DNA of 64,000 nt from Caldalkalibacillus uzonensis. Lineage in GTDB: Bacteria; Bacillota; Bacilli; Caldalkalibacillales; Caldalkalibacillaceae. This document shows, piece after piece, positions 25,913-59,885 of the stretch. The stretch is taken from the NCBI RefSeq assembly GCF_030814135.1, contig NZ_JAUSUQ010000006.1:1-64000 (forward strand), read 5' to 3'. The stretch's first letter is position 1, and the number at the start of each line of letters is the position of its first letter. The notes below the pieces were generated by a model. It had not been told where the DNA came from and made no database searches. It worked only from the letters and a program-made list of their open reading frames with translations. Made by a program: the position numbers and the translations under genes.

Positions 25913-27517
25913 ATGAATACATTCTTGAAGGCAACACTCATAACAATAGGGTTAATCATAGTGCTTGTTGGTTGCAGTGTACCTATTGCAGATGATGCTA
26001 AACAGGTCAGCCATGATCCTGAAGAGAAGACCCATGAAGACTCGATCAAGGAAGAAGATGGAAAAGTTGTGATTAATTTAAAAGCGACAGAAACCCAGTG
26101 GATGTTTAACGATGAGCTGATGGAAGACATTTGGTCTTACAACGGTTCTCTGCCAGGAAAAGAAATTCGTGTCCGTGAAGGAGACCATGTGGTTGTCCGC
26201 TTTAATAATGAACTTGATGTGCCGACAGCTGTCCATTTCCATGGAGTTCCTGTTCCCAATGAGATGGATGGCGTGCCGGGCATCACTCAAAATGCGGTGA
26301 TGCCAGGAGAGGAGTTCGTCTATGAATTTGTGGCCGATGCTCCAGGGACTTACTGGTATCATTCCCACCAGGACGGAGCTAATCAGGTGGAAAAAGGATT
26401 GTATGGTGCCTTTATTGTGGAGCCTAAGGACCAACCAGATTACGATCTTGATCAGGTGATCATGATTGATGATTGGTCTTCCGTGGGCATGGTGCACGTA
26501 GAGATGGAACATGGTGAAATGGAACACGGTGATCACGGCAACATGGATCACAATGGCATGCATCATGGGGAAGACAATGGAGAGGGTCACATGGGTCATG
26601 GTAAGAGGGACCACGGCATGCATCAAGATGAGATGTCCCATGATGAGATGATGAAAATGATGTACGATACCTTACTCATTAATGGTAAAGCTGGTCAAGC
26701 CATTGAACCGATTAAGGTACAGGAAGGGGACATGGTTAAGTTGCGGTTTGTCAATACAGGCCTTTTCACGCAAGTGATTACCATTCCGGGCCATGAGTTT
26801 AAGGTGACCCATTATGACGGGCAGGAAGTGAATCAACCAGAATGGATCTCTGGCCAGGCTATCCGCATTGCTCCGGCTGAACGCTTTGATATCGAATTAA
26901 GCATGAACCAGCCGGGTGCATGGGACATCCGAGTCTATGCCGAACGGAACCCGGACCAGTTGCAGGTCATTATTCCTCTCATCTATGACGGCTATGAGAG
27001 CGAAACTGTTGTGGCCGCTGATGACTTTGAAACATTCTTTGACTTGACCGCCTACGGTGCTCCGCTGGAGATTGAACTTGGTGACGTGACCAAGGAGTAC
27101 AACATGATTCTGGGTTCAGATGATGGCGGAGAAACTTTCACCATCAACGGCAAACAGATGAATACTGAGGAAGTGGATGGCCACGAGGTGTATGACGTTC
27201 AACAGGGCGATGTGGTTAAAATGACCATTGTAAACAAAACAGACGTGGACCATCCCATGCACCTGCACGGCCACTTTTTCTATGTCACTTCCCGCAATGG
27301 GGAACTGGTATCAGGTTCACCTGTTAAAAAAGAAACGTTAAATGTACGTCCCAATGAGACCTATGAGATTGTCTTCGTGGCTGACAATCCGGGCAATTGG
27401 ATGTTCCATTGTCATGAACTGCACCACGCCAGCGCTGGCATGGTGGCCAAAGTTCAGTATACAGACTACGAATCCAATTTCACACCAGACCCTCATATTC
27501 CCAACAAACCGGAGTAG
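25913..27517 (+). CDS. Multicopper oxidase lipoprotein with Met/His-rich insert
   Basis: Three-domain multicopper oxidase (CueO/CopA type), 534 residues, probably oxidising Cu(I) or another metal or phenol outside the membrane. The signal ends in a lipobox LVGC (Cys21). Copper ligands are HFHG (108-111), WYHSH (148-152), HPMHLHGH (447-454) and HCHELHHASAGM (499-510), so type 1, 2 and 3 sites are complete. Between domains, residues 193-250 form a strongly Met/His/Asp-rich insert (MEHGEMEHGDHG and similar), which resembles copper-capturing loops of CueO and CopA. AGGAAGAGG precedes the ATG. It is the first gene of the copper-related block and has a promoter of the shared operator type. Confidence 0.94.
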   Translation: MNTFLKATLITIGLIIVLVGCSVPIADDAKQVSHDPEEKTHEDSIKEEDGKVVINLKATETQWMFNDELMEDIWSYNGSLPGKEIRVREGDHVVVRFNNELDVPTAVHFHGVPVPNEMDGVPGITQNAVMPGEEFVYEFVADAPGTYWYHSHQDGANQVEKGLYGAFIVEPKDQPDYDLDQVIMIDDWSSVGMVHVEMEHGEMEHGDHGNMDHNGMHHGEDNGEGHMGHGKRDHGMHQDEMSHDEMMKMMYDTLLINGKAGQAIEPIKVQEGDMVKLRFVNTGLFTQVITIPGHEFKVTHYDGQEVNQPEWISGQAIRIAPAERFDIELSMNQPGAWDIRVYAERNPDQLQVIIPLIYDGYESETVVAADDFETFFDLTAYGAPLEIELGDVTKEYNMILGSDDGGETFTINGKQMNTEEVDGHEVYDVQQGDVVKMTIVNKTDVDHPMHLHGHFFYVTSRNGELVSGSPVKKETLNVRPNETYEIVFVADNPGNWMFHCHELHHASAGMVAKVQYTDYESNFTPDPHIPNKPE

Positions 27518-35898: not shown

Positions 35899-37584
35899 TT
35901 AGGAGCGGAATTTGCGGATGATAATGGGCAATACAATCATCCCGGCAAGAGCTAGCGGCAGTGCATACCACATGTTAAAGCTTGCTTGTTGTGAACCGCT
36001 TTTCTCATCTGAATCGTAAACGATTACTTTTCCTTTCATGTAGGGATGGGGAATACAAATATATTCATATTCGCCTACTTCTGTGAAGGTATAGCTAAAC
36101 TTCTCGCCATGTCCCAACAACGGTGAGGCAAACATTTCAGGTCCTGAGGTGGCCGCTACATCATGGATACCCGCAAACTCGCCCTCAGCATAGGTAAAGA
36201 TATCTTCATTGATCCATTCAACCTCTGTTCCTACAGGCACTTTCAACACCTTGGGGTAGAAGGAATTGCCGATAATTTCTACCGTAGCCTTTTGCTGCTC
36301 TGGTGTGATAATAAATGGTTCATCGATATCGGTAGGTTCATAAGGTGAGATAATGCGCTCTGCCAATTCACGGAACTCGGCCAACTCCTCTTCTGTATAG
36401 GTCGGTCCGTCAGCCAGGATGACGCTGACCACTTCTTCATGATCGTAACTGGCTGAAAATGCACCGATCGCTCCTCTGGTAGCACTTCCAAAAGCATGGG
36501 TGACTAAGAGATAGTTGCCCTCATCTTCAGGGATTCTAAAGTCTATCACCCAGGAATCAGATGGTCCTGCCAGTACTGTCTGGCCGCCAACAAATACATT
36601 ATCGGGATGGCCTTGCCAATAGACATGATCCCAGACTACGCCAACGATGTGCAATGTAGATATGATGTTAGGTCCAACGTTAAGAAAATAAATGCGTACA
36701 TTATCACCGGGGCGCACTTTGATCGGGTCTTCAACATAACGAAACAGCTGGCCGTTAAACAGCACATACAGAGGATCTCCCATAATAGCATCCTTACCTG
36801 TTTTGTACATTTCGTGTTGGATCAGATACAGCTCTACATCCGGTTTTTCGCCCCTTTTTTCCAGTTCATATCCATCATCTGGCAGTACCACCAGCATCCC
36901 ATACTGTCCAAACAAGGTATGCATGGGGATAGCATGACCACCCGGGGCACAATGATACATATAGACACCAGGATAAGTAACCTTGAACTTGATGCTCTTT
37001 GTTTCCCCGGCTCCAATCTGGCCTACATATTTAGACGTTTGAGTGTAAGCGGCATGGATGGACATGCCGTGGGGAATCTTGCCGGTGTTGACCACTTCAA
37101 TCTCAACAATGTCGTTTTGCTTAACGATCAAGGTAGGTCCGGGAATTTTATCGTCGATAGTAAAACCGCTGTACAGTACGCCTTTACCTAGATAAACGTC
37201 CCCTTCTTTTAACGTCAGCGTAAACTTTTTGTCCGGCTCCACATCTTGCGGAACATAACTGGTGGGAGGAAGGCCGTCACAACCTGTACACCCATTCTGC
37301 TTGTCGTTCATGGGTTGCAAAATTTCAATTGGCTCCTGTTCATCTGCCTTGTCAGGCTGCTTGTTATCTGTCGTCAAGGGCGTGACTCTGTAAGGTGCAT
37401 TATCTCCCCTGACAAGATCTAGTATTTCCCTGGCTTGCAGGGATGTTTCAGCCTTCTCTTCTTGCATTTCCATAAACTTCACATTACAGAAGTCACAAGC
37501 CTGAGAGACAGGAGCAAGAGCAACAAAAACAAGCAAAATAGCCAACAGGACACACAACTGCCATTTTTCTCTGGACATTTCCAT
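35899..37584 (-). CDS. NirK-family copper protein with non-canonical active site and C-terminal cupredoxin
   Basis: Exported copper protein of 561 residues, similar to copper nitrite reductase (NO-forming) over residues 118-385. N-terminal signal or anchor is followed by two CxxC motifs (30-33 and 99-102). Type 2 copper ligands His177, His211 and His363 and type 1 ligands His172, Cys212 and His222 are kept. However, the catalytic Asp (PHNVDFH in classic enzymes) is Ser175 here, the catalytic His (GGHGD) is Val317, and the axial Met is Gln227. Residues 430-525 are a second cupredoxin with His474, Cys510, His513 and Met516, and a C-terminal helix anchors the protein. An ATG at 37578 has better spacing to AGGAGG than the one at 37584 used for numbering. 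Nitrite reductase activity is uncertain. An Fnr box lies upstream. Confidence 0.85.
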   Translation of the reverse strand: MEMSREKWQLCVLLAILLVFVALAPVSQACDFCNVKFMEMQEEKAETSLQAREILDLVRGDNAPYRVTPLTTDNKQPDKADEQEPIEILQPMNDKQNGCTGCDGLPPTSYVPQDVEPDKKFTLTLKEGDVYLGKGVLYSGFTIDDKIPGPTLIVKQNDIVEIEVVNTGKIPHGMSIHAAYTQTSKYVGQIGAGETKSIKFKVTYPGVYMYHCAPGGHAIPMHTLFGQYGMLVVLPDDGYELEKRGEKPDVELYLIQHEMYKTGKDAIMGDPLYVLFNGQLFRYVEDPIKVRPGDNVRIYFLNVGPNIISTLHIVGVVWDHVYWQGHPDNVFVGGQTVLAGPSDSWVIDFRIPEDEGNYLLVTHAFGSATRGAIGAFSASYDHEEVVSVILADGPTYTEEELAEFRELAERIISPYEPTDIDEPFIITPEQQKATVEIIGNSFYPKVLKVPVGTEVEWINEDIFTYAEGEFAGIHDVAATSGPEMFASPLLGHGEKFSYTFTEVGEYEYICIPHPYMKGKVIVYDSDEKSGSQQASFNMWYALPLALAGMIVLPIIIRKFRS

Positions 37585-37701: not shown

Positions 37702-37717
37702 TGTGAGTGTACTCACA
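37702..37717 (-). promoter_or_regulatory. Fnr-type box for the NirK-like gene
   Basis: TGTGAGTGTACTCACA matches TGTGA-N6-TCACA at all defined positions. On the minus strand a TATACA -10 lies at 37681-37676, which puts the box centre about 41 bases before the predicted start near 37669, the classic activating position. The leader to the start codon is about 85 bases. Confidence 0.75.
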
Positions 37718-38111: not shown

Positions 38112-38543
38112 ATGAAGAGCAAGATCATCGCTTTTTTGATCAGCTTTTTGGTTGCGTTTGGCGGAACCTACTTATTTTTTCAATACTCAGGAAGCTCAAC
38201 AGGGTCTGACCAGGGTTCCGTGGTTGGTAATGAAGTGGAAGATGAGGGAGGTGAACAAAGTATTGGTGAAATGGTAGATGCACAGTCTGGGGAGCCTTTG
38301 GAGCGTTTGGGTTGCCTCAACTGTCATGCCGTTTCTTCCTTGGGGATTCAGGGAGGTACAGCCGGACCTGATTTATCTGATGCTTACTATGTGGTAGAAG
38401 GAAAACATGGGAAAAAACTGGAGGAATATTTACAGGCACCGTCCTCAGCCGTGATGTCCGGTGTGATAGAATCCAACCCATTAACAGATGAGGATATCGA
38501 AGCGCTGGTTTCCCTTTTGAAAGAAGCAGCTGAAAAACAATAG
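38112..38543 (+). CDS. nosC: Membrane-anchored c-type cytochrome of the nos operon (NosC)
   Basis: Monohaem cytochrome c of 143 residues, likely the electron donor to NosZ on the outer face of the membrane. It has an uncleaved-looking N-terminal helix (residues 5-23), an acidic Gly/Ser linker, the haem site CLNCH (68-72) and a probable axial Met in SSAVMSG. The order nosC-nosZ-nosB matches Gram-positive nos clusters. AAAGGAG lies upstream of the ATG, and 16 bases separate it from nosZ. Confidence 0.88.
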   Translation: MKSKIIAFLISFLVAFGGTYLFFQYSGSSTGSDQGSVVGNEVEDEGGEQSIGEMVDAQSGEPLERLGCLNCHAVSSLGIQGGTAGPDLSDAYYVVEGKHGKKLEEYLQAPSSAVMSGVIESNPLTDEDIEALVSLLKEAAEKQ

Positions 38544-38559: not shown

Positions 38560-40428
38560 ATGAAAAAACAACTTATTCCTGTGCTGGCAGGTTTGTTGGC
38601 TGGCGTTTTGGTGGCGACCTTATTCTTTGCTGAGTTTACCACGTACGGTCCGTATTCAACAGCCGGAGTAAACAGTGCGGCTGAAAAGGTTTACGTCCCT
38701 CTTGGTGAACATGATGATTATTATTTGATAGCCTCAGGAGGACATTCGGGACAGCTCTATGTGTATGGAATTCCTTCCATGCGCAGGATTAGGACGGTCC
38801 CAGTCTTTACCCCTGATCCAGCCACTGGTTATGGCTTTAACCAGAAAACAAAAGAGATGCTGGGTGGATATACCTGGGGAGACTTTCACCACCCTGCCCT
38901 GTCCTTGACCGAGGGGGAATATGATGGTAAATGGCTCTTCGCCACCGATGTGGCTAATAACCGCATTGCTGTACTGGACTTAAAGACATTTATGGTTAAG
39001 GATATGTTGAAGGTACCCAATACGGGGGGACCGCACTGTTCCGCCTTTGTGACCGAAAACACGGAATATATTTTCTTGCCCACCCGTTTTTCCGTTCCTT
39101 TTGGGCATGAATATGCCTCTTTAGATGATTATGAGAAAAAATTCAAAGGTGTCATGTCTGCTGTCACATTTGACGAAGAGACACAAAAACTGGAGCTGGC
39201 TTACCAAGTGGCTTTACCTCCCTATTCTTATGATGTAGCCGATACAGGCAAAGGAATTTCCGCTGATTGGGCGGTCATTACCACATACAATACGGAATTA
39301 GCAACGACTGATTTGGAAATTAATGCATCCCAATTTGACAGGGACTATCTGGTGCTCTTTAACTGGAGGGAACTGGAAAAGAAGATTGAGCAAGGTGAGT
39401 ATGATCTCATTGATGGGATCAAAGTGATTGATCCGCTGAAGCATAAGGGAGGTATCTATTTAGTTCCCGCAGCCAAATCCCCCCATGGTGTGGATGTGAC
39501 GCCGGATGGAAAATACTTCATCTCTTCCGGAAAATTGGCGCCTTTGTTAACGGTGTTCTCTTTTGAAAAAGCATTTGAGGCCATTGAGAAAGAAAAATTT
39601 GTAGATGAAAAGTTTGGTATTCCTGTTCTAGATTATGAGTCGGTGATGGTCCGGGAAGTTAATCCAGAGAATGCGCTGGGTCCTTTGCACACCACTTTTG
39701 ATGATCAAGGTTATGCTTACAGTTCCATGTTCATTTCTTCTGAAGTGATCAAATGGAATTATGAAACAGGTGAAGTGGTGGACCGCGTGGATGTCCATTA
39801 CTCTCCGGGACACTTGGTGGCTGCTGAAGGGGATACCAAGTCACCAAAGGGTGAGTGGCTGGTTTCACTGAATAAAATGGCCAAGGACAACTTCTTGTCC
39901 GTGGGGCCCTCCCATCCTGAGTCCATGCAGCTGATCGATATTTCCGGAGACAAGATGGAAGTGGTTTTAACCGTGCCGGTTGATCCTGAACCCCACTATG
40001 CCCAAATTATCAGTGCAGATAAAATCAACCCGATTCATGTGTTTGAAAAAGATGAAGGCCGGCCTAACTCTGTCTGGCGGCAAGAAGACGCCCGCATTGA
40101 ACGCAAAGGCAACGAAGTCCATGTCTACGGAATTGCCATGCGTTCCAAGTATATCTTTGATGCTAACGCTAAGCGCAAAGACGTCATTGAGGTCGAAGAA
40201 GGGGACAGGGTGTTCATCCATTTGACCAATATTGATCTTGACCAGGATATCACCCACGGACTGGGGATCAGTGATTATGATCTCACCATGGAAATCCAGC
40301 CCGGGGAGACGGTGACGCTGGAATTTACCGCTGATAAAGCCGGAACCTACCCGCTGTATTGTACCAACTTCTGTTCTGCTTTGCATCAAGAGATGAAAGG
40401 TTACTTGCTGGTTAAGCCGAAAAAGTAG
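38560..40428 (+). CDS. nosZ: Nitrous oxide reductase NosZ (Sec-type, clade II)
   Basis: Reduces N2O to N2 outside the cytoplasmic membrane; 622 residues. The N-terminus is a short Sec-type signal or anchor (LIPVLAGLLAGVLVATLFF) without a twin-arginine motif, which is the mark of clade II enzymes. The beta-propeller that holds the CuZ cluster includes WGDFHHPALS, GGPHCSAF, SPHGVDVTPDGKY and GPLHTTF with the expected His residues. The C-terminal CuA domain has Cys601, Cys605, His609 and Met612 (CTNFCSALHQEM). AGGAGG precedes the ATG. It is followed by a strong hairpin before nosB. Confidence 0.97.
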   Translation: MKKQLIPVLAGLLAGVLVATLFFAEFTTYGPYSTAGVNSAAEKVYVPLGEHDDYYLIASGGHSGQLYVYGIPSMRRIRTVPVFTPDPATGYGFNQKTKEMLGGYTWGDFHHPALSLTEGEYDGKWLFATDVANNRIAVLDLKTFMVKDMLKVPNTGGPHCSAFVTENTEYIFLPTRFSVPFGHEYASLDDYEKKFKGVMSAVTFDEETQKLELAYQVALPPYSYDVADTGKGISADWAVITTYNTELATTDLEINASQFDRDYLVLFNWRELEKKIEQGEYDLIDGIKVIDPLKHKGGIYLVPAAKSPHGVDVTPDGKYFISSGKLAPLLTVFSFEKAFEAIEKEKFVDEKFGIPVLDYESVMVREVNPENALGPLHTTFDDQGYAYSSMFISSEVIKWNYETGEVVDRVDVHYSPGHLVAAEGDTKSPKGEWLVSLNKMAKDNFLSVGPSHPESMQLIDISGDKMEVVLTVPVDPEPHYAQIISADKINPIHVFEKDEGRPNSVWRQEDARIERKGNEVHVYGIAMRSKYIFDANAKRKDVIEVEEGDRVFIHLTNIDLDQDITHGLGISDYDLTMEIQPGETVTLEFTADKAGTYPLYCTNFCSALHQEMKGYLLVKPKK

Positions 40429-43254: not shown

Positions 43255-43925
43255 TGATCACCATTCAAGGTTTGTCTCAAAATTATCACAACCAGACTGT
43301 TTTAAGAGATATTCACTTAACCATTGATGAGCATGAACGGTGTGCCCTTGTCGGACGTAACGGATCAGGAAAAACGACACTGATCCATACTCTGTTAGGT
43401 TTTATCCCTTTTAAAAAAGGCCAGGTTTTACTCAACGGCATTCCCGTTCACCGACAGGAGTGGAAAGCTTATGTTTCCTATTTGCCGGAAAAATTCAGTT
43501 TGTACCCTCACTTGACAGGGGGGGAAAACATCAGCTTTTTTGCGGGTATTGAAGGCAAAAAGGTGGATGAAGAGAAGGTGAAAGCGTGTCTAAAGAAGGT
43601 CGGTTTGTGGGGAGACAAAGATAAGCAGGTCAAAGGCTATTCCAAGGGGATGTTACAACGTTTGGGACTGGGTATCATGCTTTATTTCGATACCCCAATC
43701 ATGATTTTGGATGAACCGACCAGCGGCCTTGACCCCCACGGGCGGGCTCAGTTTTTATCCATTCTGAAAGATTTACAGGACAAAACGATTCTGTTTTCCT
43801 CTCATCATATGGATGAGATTAAGCAGATTTGTACCCATGTGGCTTTGTTGGAAGATGGTGTCATCACTAAGTTTACACTGGAGGAATTTAATCGGGAACA
43901 ACATAAACGGGGATGGTTGACATGA
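43254..43925 (+). CDS. nosF: NosF ABC ATPase
   Basis: ATPase partner of NosY, about 223 residues. Walker A is GRNGSGKTT (about residues 34-42), signature KGYSKGMLQRLGLG, Walker B MILDEPTSGLD and the switch His in SSHHMDE. The ATG at 43254 overlaps the nosY stop as TGATG and has GAAGGGGG upstream; a longer frame from 43197 lies inside nosY and is not real. It overlaps the next gene by four bases. Confidence 0.94.
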   Translation: MITIQGLSQNYHNQTVLRDIHLTIDEHERCALVGRNGSGKTTLIHTLLGFIPFKKGQVLLNGIPVHRQEWKAYVSYLPEKFSLYPHLTGGENISFFAGIEGKKVDEEKVKACLKKVGLWGDKDKQVKGYSKGMLQRLGLGIMLYFDTPIMILDEPTSGLDPHGRAQFLSILKDLQDKTILFSSHHMDEIKQICTHVALLEDGVITKFTLEEFNREQHKRGWLT

Positions 43926-44296
43926 AAAAATATGGGAGAAATATAAAATATGCAGTGGTGCTAATGGTCATATTGATGGCTATGATCGGCTGTTCTTCTG
44001 GACCTGCTTATGAAGCAGAGATCACAGCTGAAGGAGCGGTACACGAAGACAAGGTCGTGCTTCATTTAACAGTGACGGAAGGAGAGCAGCCAGTCAGCGG
44101 GTTGGATATCAAGGGGATTCTTGAGATGCGGCGCATGGATCATGGCATTATAGAGGTACACTTTGTTGAAACGGAGGCAGGTACTTACCGGGGGGAAGCC
44201 CAGTTGCCCATGGGAGGAGAGTGGATTGCTACATTGCAGATAGACAATGGTCAAGAACATGTTAGACAGATTGTGGAATTTGAGGTTATGGACTAA
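43922..44296 (+). CDS. YtkA/FixH-like lipoprotein at the end of the nos operon
   Basis: A 124-residue lipoprotein with lipobox MIGC (Cys near residue 24) and an immunoglobulin-like YtkA/FixH domain (VTEGEQPVSGLDIKGILEMRRMDHGIIEV and GTYRGEAQLPMGGEWIATLQI segments). It takes the position where nosL often stands, but has no NosL-type Cu(I)-binding Met-Cys motif. It may deliver copper or assist assembly outside the membrane (inference). ATG 43922 overlaps the nosF stop as ATGA; a start at 43913 is the alternative. Confidence 0.82.
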   Translation: MKKYGRNIKYAVVLMVILMAMIGCSSGPAYEAEITAEGAVHEDKVVLHLTVTEGEQPVSGLDIKGILEMRRMDHGIIEVHFVETEAGTYRGEAQLPMGGEWIATLQIDNGQEHVRQIVEFEVMD

Positions 44297-46891: not shown

Positions 46892-46921
46892 TGTGAAATA
46901 TTTCACATCTCCAAGCTTGTT
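46892..46921 (+). promoter_or_regulatory. Fnr-type box plus CAAGCTTGTT element upstream of narG-1
   Basis: TGTGAAATATTTCACA (46892-46907) is a full match to TGTGA-N6-TCACA. CAAGCTTGTT (46912-46921) follows after four bases, as before adhE. A -10 candidate TAAAAT at 46928-46933 fits a start near 46941, with the box centre near -41.5. Confidence 0.78.
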
Positions 46922-46997: not shown

Positions 46998-49900
46998 TTG
47001 GGTAAAAAAAGGTCACCACTTTTGGAACGCCTTAATTTTTTTTCACCTGCTGAACGACTCAGCAATCAGCACAGCGAGGTGACTTATCATGATCGGGACT
47101 GGGAGAATGTTTATCGACGCAGATGGCAGCACGACAAAGTGGTTCGTTCCACCCATGGTGTCAATTGTACCGGTTCATGCAGCTGGAACATTTATGTGAA
47201 AGATGGCATTGTTACCTGGGAAGGACAGCAGATAGATTATCCTTCCACAGGACCTGATATGCCAGATTTTGAACCACGGGGTTGTCCGCGTGGAGCGAGT
47301 TTCTCCTGGTATATCTATAGTCCGTTACGTGTCAAGTATCCTTATATTCGCGGTGTGTTGCTTAAATTGTGGCGCGAGGCTAAGCAAGAACATTCCGACC
47401 CCTTACAAGCGTGGGAAAGCATTGTTGAAAATCCTGAAAAAGCCAAACAGTACAAACAGGCCAGAGGTAAGGGTGGATTTGTCCGGGCCAGTTGGGATGA
47501 AGCGGTTAATCTTATTGCTGCTTCACTTCTGTACACAATCAAAAAGTACGGCCCAGACCGCAATGTAGGTTTCTCTCCGATTCCGGCCATGTCCATGGTC
47601 AGCCATGCCGCAGGTGCCCGCTTTATGAATCTGATTGGCGGACCGCTTTTAAGCTTTTATGATTGGTATGCGGATTTGCCCCCGGCTTCGCCGCAAATAT
47701 GGGGAGACCAGACCGATGTTCCTGAAAGCAGCGATTGGTATAATTCGGGTTATATCATCACCTGGGGTTCCAATATTCCCCAAACACGGACGCCTGATGC
47801 TCATTTCTTGGCTGAAGTACGTTATAAGGGAACCAAAGTGGTTTCGGTCAGTCCTGACTATGCCGAGTCTACCAAATTTGCAGATGACTGGCTGCCCGTT
47901 AAACAGGGAACAGACGGTGCCTTGGCCATGGCCATGGGACATGTAATTTTGAAAGAGTTTTACGTCGAGAAACAAACGGAATATTTTCTGAACTATGCCA
48001 GAAAGTATACTGATTTTCCATTCTTAGTTACTTTGAAGAAAAGTGATGATGGATTTATTGCTGGCCGTTTTCTCAATGCACAGGATCTGGGACGTAACAC
48101 GCAGCATGCTGAATGGAAACCGGCGCTCTTTGACGAGAATAGCCAAGATTTTGCCATTCCACACGGGACGATGGGTTCGCGTTGGGATGAACAAGGTAAG
48201 TGGAATTTGAAGTTAGTGGATGAGCAAACAAATGAGAGCATTAATCCACGCTTAAGTATGTTAGGGATAGAAGATGAGCTCTTAACCGTAAAAATCCCTT
48301 ACTTCGGGGCTGAGGAAAAACGTATCTTAAAACGAGTCGTCCCGGCTAAAGCAGTCAAGATAAACGGTGAGTCCGTATATGTCACGACAGTGTATGACTT
48401 GATTTTGGCTAATTACGGTGTAGACCGGGGATTGGGTGGCGAAGTGGCCGCTTCCTATGATGATAAGGTTCCGTTTACACCAGCTTGGCAGGAAGCGATT
48501 ACCGGTGTTAAACGGGATCTAGTGATTAAAATTGCCCGTGAATTTGCCACCAATGCCATCGATACGAAAGGACGATCCATGATTATTGTCGGAGCAGGTA
48601 TCAACCACTGGTTTAACTCTGACATGATCTACCGGGCGGTGCTCAACTTAGTACTGTTCGTCGGCGCACAAGGGGTCAATGGAGGGGGTTGGGCCCATTA
48701 TGTGGGACAGGAAAAGCTGAGAACCGCTGAGGGATGGCAAACGATTGCCATGGCCAGAGACTGGACGATGCCGCCTAAATTGCAAAACGGCACTTCTTTC
48801 CATTATTTTGCCACTGACCAGTGGCGATATGAAGAGATCCCTGTTGACAAACATGTCTCACCGCTTGTCAAAAAGGTGCGTTACCAACATTATGCTGACT
48901 ATAATGTCCTAGCCGTACGTTTAGGTTGGTTGCCATCCTATCCTACATTTGATAAGAATGGCATAGACATTTACGAAGAAGCGGTTCAAGCAGGGGCCAA
49001 AACACCGGAAGAAGTTGGTCAGTATGTGGCCGAGCAGTTAAAGCATAAAAAATTGAAATTTGCTATAGAAGATCCCGATCATCCTCATAATTTCCCTCGT
49101 AATCTATTTGTCTGGCGTGCCAATTTGATTGGAAGTTCAGCAAAAGGACATGAATATTTCCTTAAGCATCTGCTGGGTACATCCCATGGGTTGTTAAATG
49201 ATGACAACGACAGCTTGCGGCCACAAGAAGTGAAATGGCGTGAAAAGGCTGCAGAAGGAAAATTGGATCTGCTCATTAACCTTGATTTCCGGATGGCAGG
49301 TACAGCGCTCTATTCCGATATTGTTCTTCCAGCTGCAACCTGGTATGAAAAACATGATCTCAGCACAACGGATATGCATCCGTTTATTCATCCGTTTAAC
49401 CCGGCCATTTCAACGCCGTGGGAAGCGCGTTCGGACTGGGAAATATTCAAATCTATCGCCAAAGCTGTGTCAGACATGGCCAAAGAGCTAAATATGAAGC
49501 CGATCAAAGAAGTCGTGGCGACACCCCTGCTTCACGATACGCCGCAGGAGTTGGCTCAACCTTTAGGCGAGGTGAAAGACTGGAGCAAAGGGGAATGTGA
49601 ACCTGTTCCAGGTAAAACGATGCCCCAGATTCATGTCGTCGAGCGCGATTACACCCAAATCTATGACAAAATGACAACTTTGGGTCCAAATATTGCTGAT
49701 AAGCCTTACGGTATTAAAGGGATCAACTGGTCAGCAAAGGAAGAGTATGAATTATTGAAACGCTTATTAGGCACTGAAGAAAAACCTGGAGTGACACAAG
49801 TTTGCCCGGTGATCCGAGATGATCGTCAAGTGGCTGAGGCCATCTTAACCTTGTCATCGACCTCAAATGGCAAAGTAGCCGTCAAGGCATGGGAGGCCTT

Positions 49901-50681
49901 GGAGAAGAAAACAAACCTCGAACTGAAGGATTTGGCCGTAGAACGGGAAGAGGAACGTTTTACTTTTGAACAAATTACGGCACAGCCTAAGACGGTTATT
50001 ACTTCACCTGCTTTTAGCGGCTCAGAAAAAGGGGGGCGGCGTTACTCACCGTTTACAACTAACGTTGAACGCCTCATTCCTTGGCGAACGGTGACAGGAC
50101 GTCAATCCTATTATGTCGATCATGAACTGATGCATGAATTTGGTGAAACGATGGCGACGTTTAAGCCAGTAGTCGATAATTCACCATTTGGCAAAAAAAG
50201 ACCTGATGCGGAGGGTAAAGAGCTTATTCTTAACTATTTAACACCGCATAATAAATGGTCAGTGCACAGCATGTACTTTGACTCACAACCCATGTTAACC
50301 CTGTTCCGCGGAGGACCGACCATTTGGCTGAACAATGAAGATGCCCAGGAGGCAAACATAGCTGATAACGACTGGATCGAATGCTTCAACCGTCATGGTG
50401 TGGTCGTTGCCCGGGCCGTTGTCTCACACCGCCTGCCTCGTGGTATTGCCTTTATGTATCATGCTCAAGATCGGCACATCAATATACCTGGTACGAAGTT
50501 GACCGATAACCGGGGGGGTACACATAACAGTCCGACCCGCATCCATGTCAAGCCGACACATATGATTGGCGGATACGGGCAGCTCAGCTACGGGTTCAAC
50601 TACTATGGCCCCACAGGCAACCAGCGGGATTTAAATGTGGTTATCCGCAAACTGAAGGAGGTCGAATGGCTTGAAGATTAA
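46998..50681 (+). CDS. narG: Respiratory nitrate reductase alpha subunit, copy 1
   Basis: Catalytic subunit (1227 residues) with bis-MGD molybdenum cofactor; reduces nitrate to nitrite at the inner face of the membrane. Near the N-terminus HGVNCTGSC supplies the His and Cys ligands of cluster FS0, followed by DYPSTGPDMPDFEPRGCPRG. It has no Tat signal beyond the short start shared with copy 2 (SPLLERL). The TTG start at 46998 has AGAGGAG nine bases upstream. It overlaps narH by 11 bases. Copy 1 appears more A/T-rich than copy 2, and differs in a few short loops, but all functional blocks are shared. Fnr box upstream. Confidence 0.97.
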   Translation: MGKKRSPLLERLNFFSPAERLSNQHSEVTYHDRDWENVYRRRWQHDKVVRSTHGVNCTGSCSWNIYVKDGIVTWEGQQIDYPSTGPDMPDFEPRGCPRGASFSWYIYSPLRVKYPYIRGVLLKLWREAKQEHSDPLQAWESIVENPEKAKQYKQARGKGGFVRASWDEAVNLIAASLLYTIKKYGPDRNVGFSPIPAMSMVSHAAGARFMNLIGGPLLSFYDWYADLPPASPQIWGDQTDVPESSDWYNSGYIITWGSNIPQTRTPDAHFLAEVRYKGTKVVSVSPDYAESTKFADDWLPVKQGTDGALAMAMGHVILKEFYVEKQTEYFLNYARKYTDFPFLVTLKKSDDGFIAGRFLNAQDLGRNTQHAEWKPALFDENSQDFAIPHGTMGSRWDEQGKWNLKLVDEQTNESINPRLSMLGIEDELLTVKIPYFGAEEKRILKRVVPAKAVKINGESVYVTTVYDLILANYGVDRGLGGEVAASYDDKVPFTPAWQEAITGVKRDLVIKIAREFATNAIDTKGRSMIIVGAGINHWFNSDMIYRAVLNLVLFVGAQGVNGGGWAHYVGQEKLRTAEGWQTIAMARDWTMPPKLQNGTSFHYFATDQWRYEEIPVDKHVSPLVKKVRYQHYADYNVLAVRLGWLPSYPTFDKNGIDIYEEAVQAGAKTPEEVGQYVAEQLKHKKLKFAIEDPDHPHNFPRNLFVWRANLIGSSAKGHEYFLKHLLGTSHGLLNDDNDSLRPQEVKWREKAAEGKLDLLINLDFRMAGTALYSDIVLPAATWYEKHDLSTTDMHPFIHPFNPAISTPWEARSDWEIFKSIAKAVSDMAKELNMKPIKEVVATPLLHDTPQELAQPLGEVKDWSKGECEPVPGKTMPQIHVVERDYTQIYDKMTTLGPNIADKPYGIKGINWSAKEEYELLKRLLGTEEKPGVTQVCPVIRDDRQVAEAILTLSSTSNGKVAVKAWEALEKKTNLELKDLAVEREEERFTFEQITAQPKTVITSPAFSGSEKGGRRYSPFTTNVERLIPWRTVTGRQSYYVDHELMHEFGETMATFKPVVDNSPFGKKRPDAEGKELILNYLTPHNKWSVHSMYFDSQPMLTLFRGGPTIWLNNEDAQEANIADNDWIECFNRHGVVVARAVVSHRLPRGIAFMYHAQDRHINIPGTKLTDNRGGTHNSPTRIHVKPTHMIGGYGQLSYGFNYYGPTGNQRDLNVVIRKLKEVEWLED

Positions 50682-52149
50682 AGCACAAGTCGGCATGGTG
50701 ATGAACCTGGACAAATGTATCGGTTGTCACACTTGCAGTGTGACGTGTAAAAACACCTGGACAAACCGTCCAGGTGCCGAATACATGTATTTTAACAATG
50801 TAGAAACCAAACCTGGTATTGGTTATCCGAAAAGATGGGAGGATCAGGAGAAATATAAAGGGGGGTGGGAGCTTAAAAACGGTGAACTGCAGTTAAAATC
50901 AGGTTCGAAAACGAATCGCTTGCTCAATTTGTTCTATAATCCTCATCAACCAGAAATAGACGATTACTATGAACCTTGGGAGTATGACTATGACACCTTG
51001 ATCAACAGTCCACAAAAGAGATTCCAACCGGTGGCGCGTCCCAAATCTTCTCTTACGAAAGAATATATGAATATTGAATGGGGGCCCAACTGGGAAGATG
51101 ATCTGGCTGGTGCACATGTGACGGGACTTCAGGATCCGAATATAGAAAAAATAGAAGATGCGATTAAAGCAGAGTTCGAAGATGTGTTTATGATGTATTT
51201 GCCGCGGATTTGTGAGCATTGTCTCAATCCGCCGTGTGTCTCTTCCTGTCCTTCTGGTGCCATGTATAAGCGAGAGGAAGACGGTATCGTTTTGGTTGAC
51301 CAAAACGCCTGCCGTGCTTGGCGGCATTGTGTATCATCTTGTCCGTATAAGAAAGTCTATTTTAACTGGCAAACCTATAAAGCTGAGAAATGTACACTGT
51401 GTTTCCCCAGAATTGAGAATGGTCAGCCTACTATTTGTTCTGAAACGTGTGTTGGGCGGATTCGTTACCTTGGTGTAATGCTCTATGATGCTGATAAAGT
51501 GAAAGAGGCAGCATCTTGTGAACATGAACAGGATTTGTACCAAGCCCAGCTAAATATTTTCTTGGACCCGCATGATCCGGAAGTGATCCGCCAAGCCAAA
51601 GAGGAAGGAATTCCAGGCGCATGGATTGATGCGGCCCAGCGTTCACCCATCTACAAAATGATTGTAGATTGGAAAATTGCTTTGCCCCTTCATCCTGAAT
51701 ACCGTACATTGCCGATGGTGTGGTACATTCCGCCATTGAGTCCCATTATGAATACGATTGAAGGTCAAGGCAGCGGCCTTGATGAAACAGATATTTTCCC
51801 TGCCATTGACAAGATGAGAATTCCAATCCAATACCTGGCCAATCTATTAACAGCAGGAGATACAGAACATATTCGCACCACTCTGAAAAAAATGGCTGTG
51901 ATGCGTCTGTACATGCGGGCTGTGCAAACCAATAAAAAACCTGATCTTCAGATGCTTGCGGCACTTGATTTGACGGAGCAAAAAGTGAAGGAGATGTATT
52001 GTTTATTAGCCATTGCCAAGTATGAAGATCGTTTTGTGATTCCTCAATCTCACCGGGAAGCAGTGTCCGATCTGTATGCGGAACAAGGCAGTTGTGGATT
52101 GGAATTTGCTGGAGGGCCGGGAGCTTGTGGGCCAAAAACTTTAACATAG
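50671..52149 (+). CDS. narH: Respiratory nitrate reductase beta subunit, copy 1
   Basis: Iron-sulfur subunit of 492 residues that passes electrons from NarI to NarG. Four Cys clusters are visible: CIGCHTCSVTC near residues 16-26, CEHCLNPPCVSSCPSG, ACRAWRHCVSSCPYKK (Trp in the 3Fe-4S site) and CTLCFPR...CSETC. TTG start at 50671 with AAGGAGG upstream, within the end of narG; the same arrangement occurs in copy 2. The C-terminus is short and has two Cys (SCGLEF, ACGPK) that differ from the longer tail of copy 2. Confidence 0.97.
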   Translation: MKIKAQVGMVMNLDKCIGCHTCSVTCKNTWTNRPGAEYMYFNNVETKPGIGYPKRWEDQEKYKGGWELKNGELQLKSGSKTNRLLNLFYNPHQPEIDDYYEPWEYDYDTLINSPQKRFQPVARPKSSLTKEYMNIEWGPNWEDDLAGAHVTGLQDPNIEKIEDAIKAEFEDVFMMYLPRICEHCLNPPCVSSCPSGAMYKREEDGIVLVDQNACRAWRHCVSSCPYKKVYFNWQTYKAEKCTLCFPRIENGQPTICSETCVGRIRYLGVMLYDADKVKEAASCEHEQDLYQAQLNIFLDPHDPEVIRQAKEEGIPGAWIDAAQRSPIYKMIVDWKIALPLHPEYRTLPMVWYIPPLSPIMNTIEGQGSGLDETDIFPAIDKMRIPIQYLANLLTAGDTEHIRTTLKKMAVMRLYMRAVQTNKKPDLQMLAALDLTEQKVKEMYCLLAIAKYEDRFVIPQSHREAVSDLYAEQGSCGLEFAGGPGACGPKTLT

Positions 52150-52161
52150 AGGAGAGGTGGC

Positions 52162-52722
52162 ATGGTCATGGATTTTTCAGAAGCCCAGCAATTATTTAAA
52201 TTCGCCTCCCGTTTGTTGATGTATCCATCTGAGGAATGGAGACAGGAATTGGCTACGTTTGTTGAGATGATAGAATCTGTTCAGCACCGCCAGATTCAAG
52301 ACCATTTGCGCCAGTTCATTGAATGGGTCACTGCACAAGCAGAAGAAGAGCTGCTCGATCATTATGTGTCCACATTTGACTTTGGTAAAAAGACCAACTT
52401 GTATATCACTTACATCAGACATGGAGAAACACGGGACCGGGGAGCTGAACTGTTAGCCCTAAAACAATTATATGCCCGTGCGGGTTTCGCCATGACAGAC
52501 AAGGAATTACCGGATTATTTACCTTTGATGTTAGAGTTTGCCTCTTGCGGTCCAGAGAAAGAAGTGAAGAAGATGTTAAAAGATTACAGTGCGGAGATAG
52601 GAGTTTTAAGAGAACAATTGGTACAAGTTCAAAGCTTATACACTCTTATATTAGATGCAGTGATGATTGCTATGGAGGAGATTGGTATTGAACGGCCAGT
52701 GGAAAGTGGGGTGGTCAGATGA
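52162..52722 (+). CDS. narJ: Nitrate reductase assembly chaperone NarJ, copy 1
   Basis: Cytoplasmic chaperone of 186 residues needed for cofactor insertion into NarG before membrane docking; not part of the final enzyme. All-helical TorD/NarJ fold features are the EAQQLFKFASRLLMYP start, the FDFGKKTNLYITYIRHGETRDRG block and ELPDYLPLMLEFAS. AGAGGTGG precedes ATG 52162; ATG 52168 is an alternative. It overlaps narI by four bases. Confidence 0.94.
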   Translation: MVMDFSEAQQLFKFASRLLMYPSEEWRQELATFVEMIESVQHRQIQDHLRQFIEWVTAQAEEELLDHYVSTFDFGKKTNLYITYIRHGETRDRGAELLALKQLYARAGFAMTDKELPDYLPLMLEFASCGPEKEVKKMLKDYSAEIGVLREQLVQVQSLYTLILDAVMIAMEEIGIERPVESGVVR

Positions 52723-53426
52723 TCGAACAATTTTTATGGGTCATATTCCCATACATTGCCTTAACCATTTTTATTGGCGGACATATCTACCGCTATAACC
52801 ATGATCAATTTGGCTGGACGGCTAAATCGAGTGAGTTACTGGAAAAGAAGCAATTAAAATGGGGAAGCAATCTGTTTCATTTTGGGATCATCTTTGTTTT
52901 TTTCGGGCATGTACTGGGTATATTAATTCCGGCCAGTATTTACGAAGCGCTTGGAGTGACCAAAGATATGTATCACATCTTGGCTATTGCAGGGGGAATA
53001 CCTGCTGGGATTATCGCTACTGTTGGTTTGTTAATATTAATCAATCGCAGATTAACAGATAAGCACGTAAAATTGACCAGCAGTAAGGGGGATTTTGTCG
53101 CCTTATTCTTTTTGTCTGTGGTGATGCTTACCGGTCTAGCTTCCACGTTTTTAAACATTAACCCTCAAGGATTTGATTATCGGACAACAATAGGACCTTG
53201 GTTTAGAAGCTTGTTTGTTTTTCAACCTGATCCGACATTAATGAGTACGGTACCAATCTGGTTCAAGATTCATATCTTAGCAGCCTTTGCCTTTTTCGCC
53301 GTGTGGCCGTTTACCCGCATGGTTCATGTATTCAGTTTCCCGTTAAAATATTTGAGCCGCAGTTTTGTCGTCTATCGTAAGCGCCGTCCATATAAACAGG
53401 ATCAGCCTGTGAAAAAGACACTTTAG
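52719..53426 (+). CDS. narI: Nitrate reductase gamma subunit (cytochrome b), copy 1
   Basis: Membrane subunit of 235 residues with five transmembrane helices and two b haems, which oxidises menaquinol. Haem-ligand His residues are in FIGGHIYRYNHDQFGW, HFGIIFVFFGHVLG and IHILAAFAFFAVWPFTRMVHVFS. It closes the narGHJI-1 operon; two terminators follow within 170 bases. Confidence 0.96.
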   Translation: MIEQFLWVIFPYIALTIFIGGHIYRYNHDQFGWTAKSSELLEKKQLKWGSNLFHFGIIFVFFGHVLGILIPASIYEALGVTKDMYHILAIAGGIPAGIIATVGLLILINRRLTDKHVKLTSSKGDFVALFFLSVVMLTGLASTFLNINPQGFDYRTTIGPWFRSLFVFQPDPTLMSTVPIWFKIHILAAFAFFAVWPFTRMVHVFSFPLKYLSRSFVVYRKRRPYKQDQPVKKTL

Positions 53427-54127: not shown

Positions 54128-57100
54128 ATGAGCAGAAAAATATCCCCGCTGCTTCAAAAATTAAGGTATTTCGGAAAATCCGAGAAACCTGCCAGCCATG
54201 CTGAGCTGTCACCTTATGGACGGGAGATAGAGAAGGTTTACCGCCGACGCTGGCAACATGATAAGGTGGTGCGCACCACACATGGTGTCAATTGTACCGG
54301 TTCTTGCAGTTGGAAGGTTTACGTGAAGGACGGCATTATCACCTGGGAAACGCAGCAGATAGACTATCCGTCAACAGGGCCTGGGATGCCTGAATATGAA
54401 CCCCGGGGCTGCCCCAGAGGAGCCACTTTTTCCTGGTATACATACAGTCCCTTGAGAGTACGCTATCCTTATGTGCGCGGAGCTTTGCTGAACCTGTGGA
54501 AAAAAGAGCTCCGCAAAACCAATGATCCGGTTGCGGCCTGGAGGTCCATTGTTGAGGATCCAGACAAAGCCAAGCGGTATAAAGCTGCCCGGGGAAAAGG
54601 AGGTTTTGTGCGTGCGACATGGGATGATGTCAATACGCTTATCTCGGCTTCACTGATCTATACCATTCAACAGTATGGACCAGACCGGATTTTTGGGTTT
54701 TCTCCGATTCCGGCCATGTCTATGGTCAGCTATGCCGGAGGCGGACGGTTTTTAAACCTGATCGGCGGATCTCTGCTCAGCTTTTATGATTGGTATGCAG
54801 ATCTTCCGCCTGCTTCTCCACAAGTTTGGGGTGAACAGACTGATGTTCCGGAAAGCTCAGACTGGTTTAATTCCAGTTACATGCTGGTCTGGGGCTCCAA
54901 TATACCACAGACGAGGACACCTGATGCACACTTTTATATAGAAGCCCGTTACAAAGGTACTAAAGTGGTGGCTGTCAGTCCTGACTATGCCGAGTTTGTC
55001 AAGTTTGCCGACAACTGGCTGGCCGTTCAACCCGGCATGGACGGGGCTTTGGCGATGGCCATGACACATGTGATTCTCAAGGAGTTTTATGTGGATGAGC
55101 AGACTGAGTACTTTCAAGATTATGTCAAGAAATTTACCGACTTACCTTATTTAGTCACGTTAAAAAAACAGGGTGACAGCTACGTGGCGCACCGCTTTTT
55201 AAGAGCCAGCGATTTGGGAATGCCGTTGTCCAACGCTGAATGGAAGACGGTCGTGTGGGATGAAAAGTCGCAAAGATTTGCAGTACCTAACGGGAGCATC
55301 GGGCATCGCTGGGAAAATGAAGGGAAATGGAACCTGCATCTGGAGGATTCGGCCAATCAGTTGACAGAGATTCAGCCTGCCTTAACCTTGTTAGGTCATG
55401 AGGATGACGTTTTGACGCTAAAGTTTCCACACTTTGAGCCTGAGACAAAAACAGTGTTGGAACGGGCTGTTCCGGTCAAAGCACTTGAACAAGAGGGGCA
55501 GACGCTTTATGTGACCACTGTTTTTGATTTGCTTTTAGCCAAAACCGGGGTTTCCCGCGGTTTGCCTGGTGATTATCCGGCTGACTATGACGATCCGAAG
55601 CCCTACACACCCGCCTGGCAGGAAGCGCTGACCGGCATCGACCGCAAATTAGCTGCTCAAATTGCCCGTGAATTTGCCCAGAATGCCATCGATTCCAAAG
55701 GGCGCTCCATGATTGTGATGGGTTCAGGAATCAACCACTGGTACCATTCCGATGCCATTTACCGGACAGTGCTCAATCTTGTCCTTTTAACAGGATCTCA
55801 GGGCGTCAACGGTGGCGGATGGGCCCATTATGTGGGTCAGGAGAAAGTGCGCCCGCTGGAAGGATGGCAAACGATTGCCATGGCCCGGGACTGGGGCGGC
55901 CCTCCCAGGCTGCAGAATGGAACATCCTTTTTCTATTTTGTCACAGAGCAGTGGAAATACGATGATCAAGCGATGAACAATCTGGTGTCCCCCTTGGTGG
56001 ATAAGCCCCGCTATCAGCATGGGGGAGATTATAACTATCTGGCTGCCCGTCTGGGCTGGCTGCCATCTTATCCCCAGTTTAATGCCAACAGCATCAAGTT
56101 GTATGAACAATCGGGAGCCAAAAGCAATGAGGAAGCCGTACAATTTGTCGTTGATCAAGTTAAAGCTGGGCGCCTGAAGTTTGCCATTGAAAATCCGTCC
56201 GACCCCCAAAACTTTCCGAGGGTACTGTTTGTCTGGCGGGCTAATCTGATCGGCAGCTCAGCCAAGGGACATGAATATTTTCTGAAGCATCTCTTGGGAA
56301 CACATCATGCCACTTTAAGTGAGCAAAACAAGGACCTGACAACCAGTGAGATTGACTGGTCTGGTGATTCACCGGAAGGAAAGTTGGACTTGCTGGTCAA
56401 CATTGATTTTCGGATGAACGGTACAGGTCTGTACTCAGATATCGTTCTCCCGGCGGCGACATGGTATGAAAAATATGATCTCAGCAGCACGGACCTGCAT
56501 CCGTTTGTCCATCCCTTTAATCCAGCCATTGCCCCACCCTGGCAATCACGGTCTGATTGGGATTTCTTCAAAGGATTGGCCCAGACCTTTTCCCGGCTGG
56601 CCAAAAACTATTTTAACGGGCCGGTTAAGGATATTGTGGCCACTCCGCTCTTGCATGACACACGGGATGAACTGGCCCAGCCCTATGGAGAGGTTTACGA
56701 TTGGAAGGATGGCCAGCATGAACCCGTTCCTGGAGTCAATTTTCCCCGCTTGCATGTTGTGGAGCGCGATTATACCCAAGTTTATGACAAGTTTATTGCC
56801 CTGGGACCGGTGATCAGAGAGCAAATCGGGGCCAAGGGGCTGGGTTGGAAGGCAGATAAAGAATATGATAAGTTAAAGCAGATGCTGGGGACGGCCGAAA
56901 CAGCACGGTACAAGGATTGTCCCAGCCTGTTTACTGACCGGGATGCGGCAGAAGCCATCTTGACGTTGTCCAGCTCCACAAACGGTTCCATGGCGCTGAA
57001 GGCCTGGGAAGTGGCAGAGAGCAAAACGGGACAAAAACTGAAAGATTTGGTCAAAGAGCGTGCGGAAGAGCATTTGACATTTGACATGATAACGGCTCAG

Positions 57101-57808
57101 CCCAGGCAAGTGTTGACCACCCCCGTGTATAGTGGTACGGAAACCGGCAACCGCCGTTATTCTCCGTTTACGACCAATGTAGAGCGGCTGATCCCGTGGC
57201 GGACGCTGACAGGAAGGCAGCACTTTTATCTTGACCACGAACTGATGCTGGAGTTTGGGGAAGAATTGCCCACCTTCAAAGCTCCTCTCCGCAAGGCCTC
57301 CTTTTACGACAGCGACCGCAAGCCGCAAATCAAAGGGAAAGAAATCGCGCTCAGATATTTAACCCCTCACTACAAATGGTCCTATCACAGCACATACTGG
57401 GACACGCTGCCGATGTTAACCTTGTTTCGCGGGGGGCCACATGTCTGGTTAAACAATAAAGATGCTGAAGAAGTGGGAATCGCCGACAATGATTGGTTGG
57501 AAATGTATAACCGCAATGGCGTTGTTGTGGCCCGGGCCGTGGTCAGCCACCGCTTGCCCAGAGGGGTGGCTTTCATGTATCACGTACAGGACCGTTACAT
57601 TAATGTTCCTGGCTCACCCATTAGCAAGCTTCGTGGGGGAACATTTAACAGTCCGACACGGATTCATGTTAAGCCGACTCAGATGGTTGGCGGTTATGCC
57701 CAGTTAAGCTATGGCTTTAATTATTACGGACCGACGGGCAACCAGCGGGATGAACAGGTATTGATCCGCAGATTGGACAAAGAGGAGGTGGACTGGCTTG
57801 AAGATTAA
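54128..57808 (+). CDS. narG: Respiratory nitrate reductase alpha subunit, copy 2
   Basis: Second NarG, 1226 residues, closely similar to copy 1 along its full length, with the same FS0 motif HGVNCTGSC and STGPGMPEYEPRGCPRG block. AAAGGAG precedes the ATG. All main blocks are intact, so it should be active. It differs from copy 1 in codon use and base composition (more G/C-rich by eye). Two functional Nar enzymes are known in denitrifying Bacillus. The hemerythrin-like gene in front and the lack of an Fnr box suggest other control than copy 1. Confidence 0.97.
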   Translation: MSRKISPLLQKLRYFGKSEKPASHAELSPYGREIEKVYRRRWQHDKVVRTTHGVNCTGSCSWKVYVKDGIITWETQQIDYPSTGPGMPEYEPRGCPRGATFSWYTYSPLRVRYPYVRGALLNLWKKELRKTNDPVAAWRSIVEDPDKAKRYKAARGKGGFVRATWDDVNTLISASLIYTIQQYGPDRIFGFSPIPAMSMVSYAGGGRFLNLIGGSLLSFYDWYADLPPASPQVWGEQTDVPESSDWFNSSYMLVWGSNIPQTRTPDAHFYIEARYKGTKVVAVSPDYAEFVKFADNWLAVQPGMDGALAMAMTHVILKEFYVDEQTEYFQDYVKKFTDLPYLVTLKKQGDSYVAHRFLRASDLGMPLSNAEWKTVVWDEKSQRFAVPNGSIGHRWENEGKWNLHLEDSANQLTEIQPALTLLGHEDDVLTLKFPHFEPETKTVLERAVPVKALEQEGQTLYVTTVFDLLLAKTGVSRGLPGDYPADYDDPKPYTPAWQEALTGIDRKLAAQIAREFAQNAIDSKGRSMIVMGSGINHWYHSDAIYRTVLNLVLLTGSQGVNGGGWAHYVGQEKVRPLEGWQTIAMARDWGGPPRLQNGTSFFYFVTEQWKYDDQAMNNLVSPLVDKPRYQHGGDYNYLAARLGWLPSYPQFNANSIKLYEQSGAKSNEEAVQFVVDQVKAGRLKFAIENPSDPQNFPRVLFVWRANLIGSSAKGHEYFLKHLLGTHHATLSEQNKDLTTSEIDWSGDSPEGKLDLLVNIDFRMNGTGLYSDIVLPAATWYEKYDLSSTDLHPFVHPFNPAIAPPWQSRSDWDFFKGLAQTFSRLAKNYFNGPVKDIVATPLLHDTRDELAQPYGEVYDWKDGQHEPVPGVNFPRLHVVERDYTQVYDKFIALGPVIREQIGAKGLGWKADKEYDKLKQMLGTAETARYKDCPSLFTDRDAAEAILTLSSSTNGSMALKAWEVAESKTGQKLKDLVKERAEEHLTFDMITAQPRQVLTTPVYSGTETGNRRYSPFTTNVERLIPWRTLTGRQHFYLDHELMLEFGEELPTFKAPLRKASFYDSDRKPQIKGKEIALRYLTPHYKWSYHSTYWDTLPMLTLFRGGPHVWLNNKDAEEVGIADNDWLEMYNRNGVVVARAVVSHRLPRGVAFMYHVQDRYINVPGSPISKLRGGTFNSPTRIHVKPTQMVGGYAQLSYGFNYYGPTGNQRDEQVLIRRLDKEEVDWLED

Positions 57809-59342
57809 GGCCCAGTTCGGGATGGTGATGAACCTGGATAAATGTATCGGCTGCCATACATGCAGCATCACTTGCAATAACACCTGGACAAACCGCCCTG
57901 GTGCGGAGTACATGTGGTGGAACAATGTTGAGACAAAGCCGGGAATAGGCTATCCGAAGGAATGGGAAAATCAGGACATCCATAAAGGCGGCTGGGTATT
58001 AAAGAACGGGAAACTGGAATTGCGGGCTGGGGGGCGGGCCAATAAACTGCTCAATATTTTTTACAATCCTGATATGACCCTCATTGATGACTTTTATGAA
58101 CCATGGACGTACGAGTATGAGCACCTGATTAACAGTCCCGAGAAGAACCACCAGCCTGTAGCCCGGCCCAAGTCCCAACTGACTGGTGACTATATGGATC
58201 TTCAGTGGGGACCTAATTGGGAGGATGATTTGGCCGGCGTGCATGAGACAGGAAAACGGGACCCTAACATGCACGGTTTGGAAGAAAAAGTAAAATTTGA
58301 ATTTGAACAAACGTTCATGATGTATCTGCCTCGGATTTGCGAGCATTGCATTAACCCGCCGTGTGTTTCATCCTGTCCGTCAGGGGCCATTTATAAACGG
58401 GATGAGGACGGCATTGTCTTGGTTGATCAGGATGCCTGCCGCAGCTGGCGGTTTTGTGTGACAGGCTGTCCCTACAAAAAGGTATATTTTAACTGGAAGA
58501 CGCATAAAGCGGAAAAGTGCACTTTTTGCTTTCCCAGAATCGAGGCAGGTTTGCCCACTATCTGCTCAGAGACCTGTGTGGGCCGGCTGCGCTATATAGG
58601 CATCGTCTTCTATGACTTGGACAAAGTGGAGACGGCGGCTTCGGTGCCGGATGAAAAAAATCTTTATCATGCCCAACTCGATATCTTTCTCGATCCCCAT
58701 GATCCTCAAGTGATTGAAGCCGCCCGGCAAGCGGGTTATACCGAGGACTGGATCGAAGCGGCTCAGCGCTCTCCCATCTACAAGCTGGCCGTTGAACAGA
58801 AGATCGCTTTGCCTCTGCATCCTGAATACCGCACGTTGCCCATGGTGTGGTATGTTCCTCCGCTCAGTCCCATCATGAGCGCCTTTGATGGAGGGTTGGA
58901 TGACATCAATCCCCATGTGATATTCCCTGCCATAGATGAGATGCGCATCCCCATTGAATATTTGGCCAATATGCTCAGTGCGGGGGATACGGAAGTAATC
59001 CGCACTGTGCTGAAAAAAATGGTGGTGATGAGAAGTTACATGCGAGCTGTTACTTTGGGCAAAGAGCCGGACAAAACCTTACTGGATAAAGTGGGCATGA
59101 CAGAAGAGACAGTCCGGGAGATGTATGAGCTGTCGGCCATTGCCAAGTATTCGGACCGCTATGTCATACCTTCATCCCACCGTGAAATGGCAGATAATAT
59201 GTTTCTTGGGCAGGGAACGGCCGGTTACGATTTTATGGAAGGCTGCTCTGGCTGCGCCGTTAATGCATATATGGACGACGACTATAAGTTTGGAGATGAT
59301 TATTGGAGGGATATGGATGAACCAACACCAAAAAATCTTTAA
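57798..59342 (+). CDS. narH: Respiratory nitrate reductase beta subunit, copy 2
   Basis: Second NarH, 514 residues. Cys clusters as in copy 1: CIGCHTCSITC, CEHCINPPCVSSCPSG, ACRSWRFCVTGCPYKK and CTFCFPR...CSETC. TTG start at 57798 with GAGGAGG upstream, overlapping narG-2 by 11 bases just as in copy 1. The C-terminal tail is about 22 residues longer than in copy 1 and carries GCSGCAVN, closer to the usual NarH tail. It overlaps narJ-2 by 26 bases. Confidence 0.97.
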   Translation: MKIKAQFGMVMNLDKCIGCHTCSITCNNTWTNRPGAEYMWWNNVETKPGIGYPKEWENQDIHKGGWVLKNGKLELRAGGRANKLLNIFYNPDMTLIDDFYEPWTYEYEHLINSPEKNHQPVARPKSQLTGDYMDLQWGPNWEDDLAGVHETGKRDPNMHGLEEKVKFEFEQTFMMYLPRICEHCINPPCVSSCPSGAIYKRDEDGIVLVDQDACRSWRFCVTGCPYKKVYFNWKTHKAEKCTFCFPRIEAGLPTICSETCVGRLRYIGIVFYDLDKVETAASVPDEKNLYHAQLDIFLDPHDPQVIEAARQAGYTEDWIEAAQRSPIYKLAVEQKIALPLHPEYRTLPMVWYVPPLSPIMSAFDGGLDDINPHVIFPAIDEMRIPIEYLANMLSAGDTEVIRTVLKKMVVMRSYMRAVTLGKEPDKTLLDKVGMTEETVREMYELSAIAKYSDRYVIPSSHREMADNMFLGQGTAGYDFMEGCSGCAVNAYMDDDYKFGDDYWRDMDEPTPKNL

Positions 59343-59847: not shown

Positions 59848-59885
59848 AGAGTTTCTTAATAAAACTTTGAAATGGAGGAAGTTTC

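Follow-up and report, generated by a model that had tools for sequence, protein, structure and literature searches.

The window analysed here, 64,000 nucleotides of a Caldalkalibacillus uzonensis contig, contains a gene on the minus strand (35899–37584) whose product resembles the copper nitrite reductase NirK and departs from it at characteristic positions. This raises the question of whether the protein reduces nitrite or has another function. The open reading frame is real and encodes 561 amino acids, and the residue numbers of an earlier sequence-only reading match those used below. The protein matched the NirK profile TIGR02376 with 146.1 bits, which is below the curated cut-off of 296.3, and also gave a Copper-bind match. 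Together with the comparison to the solved structure 6hbe and the fold match presented below, these matches point to a three-domain copper nitrite reductase of the TsNirK type (probably NirK Clade 5). We estimate at about 0.93 the probability that the protein belongs to this type and takes the second step, from nitrite to NO, in a denitrification pathway consisting of Nar, NirK, qNor, and NosZ.

The best solved relative was the NirK of Thermus scotoductus (TsNirK, 6hbe), which aligned to residues 115–525 of the window protein with 433.9 bits and an E-value of 7.7e-129; the next matches to solved structures appeared only near 1e-41. TsNirK is a trimer containing three coppers per subunit, namely a T1CuN with His2-Cys-Gln ligation, the catalytic copper, and a T1CuC located in a C-terminal cupredoxin at a distance of 14 Å from T1CuN, and it carries Ser78 in an alternative sensing loop (Opperman et al. 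2019, PMC6400189). It reduces nitrite with a kcat of 65 per s and a KM of 27 µM nitrite, and nitrite reoxidises a pseudoazurin via this enzyme (PMC6400189). Across its three domains, the window protein is 51% identical to TsNirK and shares with it the serine (SerCAT) in place of the catalytic Asp, the Gln ligand of T1CuN, the C-terminal T1CuC, and the bridging Glu; every copper ligand, HisCAT, ValCAT, and Gln335/Thr336 were matched as well. It differs from TsNirK by an additional N-terminal arm of ~110 amino acids with two CxxC motifs, by a C-terminal membrane helix, and by branching within another subclade. Thioalkalivibrio, Caldalkalibacillus, and Thermus have been assigned to NirK Clade 5 (Pold et al. 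2024, PMC10999283), and the family collected here likewise includes Thioalkalivibrio (L078, L085–L087) and TsNirK. Since TsNirK has been published and Clade 5 has been named, the window protein is a member of a described family. The suggestion of a mechanistically new nitrite reductase, made in the sequence-only reading, is thus right in that the enzyme is unusual and wrong in that it is new, as TsNirK was published in 2019.

The alignment with TsNirK allowed the assignment of the individual residues. The sensing loop H172-G-M-S175-I-H177 (37054–37071; this and all following features of the protein are on the minus strand) holds the T1Cu His, SerCAT, and the T2Cu His, and aligns with His75-Ser78-His80 of TsNirK. 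The next group (36904–36954) comprises the T2Cu ligand H211, the T1Cu ligands C212 and H222, and the axial T1Cu ligand Q227, aligned with His114, Cys115, His125, and Gln130. The third T2Cu ligand, H363 (36496–36498), corresponds to His267 and would be given to the neighbouring subunit. All ligands general to NirK are therefore present (H172, C212, H222, and Q227 for T1Cu; H177, H211, and H363 for T2Cu), together with HisCAT H312, as are V314, Q335, and T336 of the substrate pocket. The AspCAT and the axial Met typical of canonical (class I/II) NirK are replaced by S175 and Q227. On these points, the replacement of Asp by Ser175, that of the axial Met by Gln227, and the retention of all T1 and T2 His/Cys ligands, the alignment agrees with what had been read by eye.

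The claim that the catalytic His is also lost did not hold. The catalytic His of NirK is the one present in the motifs TRPHL or SSFHV (PMC4770552, PMC6400189). In the window protein, it is H312 in STLH312IV, which aligns with His216 of TsNirK, while V314 aligns with its Val218 (36643–36651). All family members (81/81) and all ordinary Bacillota NirKs compared (11/11) have H312, and V314 is equally invariant in the 81. The residue that had been taken for the catalytic one was the His of GGHGD; V317 aligns with this His, the gate of the primary proton channel, and TsNirK, GtNir, and other three-domain NirKs lack it as well (PMC6400189). The apparent loss was thus a misalignment, ruled out by comparison with TsNirK and GtNir. 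As H312 is kept and V317 stands at the channel gate, what really sets the protein apart is the third domain and two substitutions, Ser for Asp and Gln for the axial Met. The NirKs of Geobacillus (GtNir/GkNir; 3x1e, 3wkq) share the core fold, the T2Cu ligands, HisCAT in SSFHVV, and the lack of the GGHGD His. They differ in having AspCAT, a Met axial ligand, and no third cupredoxin, and are ~30–37% identical to the window protein.

The third domain, at amino acids 431–524 (36013–36294), is an amicyanin-like cupredoxin (PF00127, 1.5e-16; amicyanin, 4.6e-17). Its T1CuC ligands H474, C510, H513, and M516 align with H390, C428, H431, and M434 of TsNirK and make up a complete site, as the sequence-only reading had proposed, and E469, on the inter-copper path, aligns with E385. 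An AlphaFold2 model built from 63 family sequences reached a mean pLDDT of 85, with most of the core above 90. It consists of a weakly predicted N-terminal arm, three cupredoxin domains, and a terminal helix. The top fold match of the model was again 6hbe (E 5.6e-54, TM 0.87 on the target); the geometry of the copper sites was judged from the alignment and this overall fold match, and not from superposed side chains. The second match, 9cck, is a multicopper oxidase of Nitrosopumilus maritimus whose three cupredoxin domains are arranged as in the window protein; it differs by its low identity (22%) and lower TM-score and is much more distant from the window protein.

The family was then delimited. 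A scan of genome contigs with the single protein found no relative, and the two-row alignment of the window protein with TsNirK, used as a query, yielded 114 relatives, 80 of which were kept. They come from Bacteroidota, Balneolota, Ignavibacteriota, Verrucomicrobiota, Kiritimatiellota, Planctomycetota, Myxococcota, and Gammaproteobacteria, as well as from Spirochaetota, Acidobacteriota, Chloroflexota, and Aigarchaeota-type archaea. The family is rare in Bacillota: among 398 genomes, a full-length match was found only in the window's own genome, and in the four other genomes with matches at E ≤ 1e-50 only the two-domain core was matched. Ser175 and the His and Cys ligands of T1CuN and T2Cu were present in all 81 sequences. 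The axial T1CuN ligand is Gln in 72 of the 81 and Met in nine (archaea, Acidobacteria, and Chloroflexi). Because these nine still have Ser, the two replacements are separable. The T1CuC ligands and E469 were found in every one of the 78 members that reach this region. At one locus (L026:9001–10566), nirK is divided between two ORFs of a metagenome-assembled contig, owing to a frameshift or to faulty assembly, and one Myxococcales assembly (SLPW01) has two family nirK copies on two contigs (L080 and L064).

In a tree with ordinary Bacillota NirK as the only outgroup and SH-aLRT as the only support measure, the family formed one clade (support 100), which held TsNirK, Thioalkalivibrio, and the Aigarchaeota-type archaea and stood apart from these ordinary enzymes. 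The window protein paired with a relative from a Bacillus metagenome-assembled genome (L024; 59–60% identity, support 100), and TsNirK was placed in a deeper subclade together with Spirochaetota. A close relative already shown to be a nitrite reductase does exist in TsNirK, which counts against the novelty proposed in the sequence-only reading.

By homology with the Thermus enzyme, the protein would form a trimer outside the cytoplasmic membrane, with the C-terminal helix serving as a hold. Electrons would enter at the C-terminal T1CuC (H474, C510, H513, and M516) and would probably reach the Gln-ligated T1CuN (H172, C212, H222, and Q227) by way of E469 and H222. From there, the C212–H211 bridge would carry them to T2Cu (H177, H211, and the neighbour's H363), where nitrite would be reduced. 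In proton relay, Ser175 would take the place of Asp and would act together with a single water channel and with His312, Q335, and T336. We infer that the window protein reduces nitrite as has been shown for TsNirK (PMC6400189). The electron donor may be the product of the gene at 38112–38543 (plus strand), a membrane-anchored monoheme cytochrome c (PF00034 at the cut-off, E 6.8e-4) and possibly a shared donor, or another carrier.

This cytochrome gene starts the nos cluster, which lies on the opposite strand to nirK, so that the divergent arrangement described earlier is correct. It is followed by nosZ (38560–40428, plus strand; TIGR04246, 866 bits), encoding a Sec-dependent (clade II) N2O reductase, and the window also holds nosD and ABC genes. 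The small gene closing the cluster (43913–44296) encodes a YtkA/FixH-like protein. Two tandem complete narGHJI sets (46998–53426 and 54128–60578) are followed by a gene for a quinol-dependent NO reductase (qNor; 60775–63207, plus strand; PF22085 and PF00115). A search of the 3.88 Mb genome, 100% complete by estimate, found no NirS, no second NirK, and no NrfA, and NirB gave only matches below the cut-off. Genomes of Clade 5 often have NrfA (PMC10999283), and in this respect the present genome differs. A separate multicopper oxidase of 534 amino acids (25913–27517), with a Met/His-rich stretch and a weak match to the NirK profile, is probably involved in copper handling.

The arrangement next to nosZ bears on the alternative that the protein is no nitrite reductase at all, and is instead an electron carrier or a copper oxidoreductase with a role in NosZ or NO chemistry. 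The divergent position of the gene, the replaced AspCAT, and an extra cupredoxin that could relay electrons outward are all in keeping with such a role, as is the second fold match 9cck, a multicopper oxidase that likewise ends in a cupredoxin. We nevertheless regard this alternative, which had been raised in the sequence-only reading, as very unlikely. It lacks support because the T2Cu ligands and the pocket residues V314, Q335, and T336 are fully kept and no other candidate for forming NO from nitrite was found in this genome, although nar, qNor, and nosZ are present; moreover, TsNirK carries these same substitutions and is an active nitrite reductase (PMC6400189).

A perfect FNR/CRP-type box, TGTGA-N6-TCACA, is located at 37702–37717, ~118 bp upstream of the nirK start codon, in agreement with the ideal Fnr promoter reported before. 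Perfect boxes of this kind occur five times in the window, whereas first-order Markov simulations predict 0.095. They are located at 1194–1209, 1888–1903, 7678–7693, 37702–37717, and 46892–46907 and precede an ORF at 1280, an adhE-like gene at 1951, an anion transporter gene at 7753, nirK, and narG, respectively, which looks like an FNR regulon. FNR control of nirK is plausible, judging from its box. Meanwhile, the neighbours of the relatives include ScdA/RIC NO-repair proteins at 12 loci, nosZ, cytochrome c, Crp/Fnr regulators, and SCO1 at seven loci each, and azurin-like cupredoxins and Rrf2 regulators at six each; these counts are lower bounds, as many contigs are short, and each cluster name rests on one annotated representative. 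The frequent presence of ScdA/RIC and Rrf2, families linked to nitrosative stress, would suit a true nitrite reductase whose chief role is NO signalling or detoxification and not respiratory flux. This possibility appears even slightly less probable than that of a carrier, as both the FNR-type box, similar to that before narG, and the complete nar-nirK-qNor-nosZ set within one window fit respiration. A degenerate, inactive NirK was rejected on account of the pocket, which is invariant in 81 sequences.

In addition to the domains shared with TsNirK, the respiratory nitrite reductase proposed here has terminal extensions. A predicted Sec signal peptide (amino acids 1–29; model helix 5–22) is followed by the mature chain start SQA|C30DFC33N (37483–37584 together with the signal peptide), whose CxxCN motif (37483–37497) is common in the family. 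The second CxxC, C99-x-x-C102 (37279–37290), is present only in the window protein. At the other end, the hydrophobic helix 538–560 of the AlphaFold model (35905–35973) represents a C-terminal transmembrane anchor. Both CxxC motifs and the anchor had been recognised from the sequence. An AxA|CxxCN-type motif after the signal peptide was present in 60 of the 81 members (e.g., L025–L067), with the N rarely being S, Q, or A, and a hydrophobic C-terminal tail in 56 of 78; neither is found in the aligned TsNirK sequence. Ala occupies position −1 of the CxxC in 56 of the 60 motif carriers. Lipoprotein formation via C30 is not favoured, as the AxA fits signal peptidase I and Leu occurs at −3 in only 3/60. 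The arm gave no Pfam or NCBIfam match. The conserved AxA|CxxCN arm and the anchor, common in the family, appear to be undescribed, and the arm may have a role in disulfide formation, copper loading, or tethering. A bolder proposal is that CxxCN and the anchor constitute a further functional module, the fourth of the protein. It would provide a thiol or metal site for copper loading or membrane redox sensing, would gate or feed the reductase, and would mark out a membrane-tethered branch of which TsNirK is not representative; we consider this unlikely.

These results extend a little-studied family of Asp-less nitrite reductases to a Gram-positive denitrifier. Members from at least ten phyla all carry the Ser replacement, so the alternative proton path would be a long-established, stable arrangement and not the result of decay at the site. 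The host offers a clean natural test of whether a Ser/Gln enzyme alone can carry denitrification, since no other NO-forming nitrite reductase was found there; Thermus scotoductus, by contrast, also has NirS.
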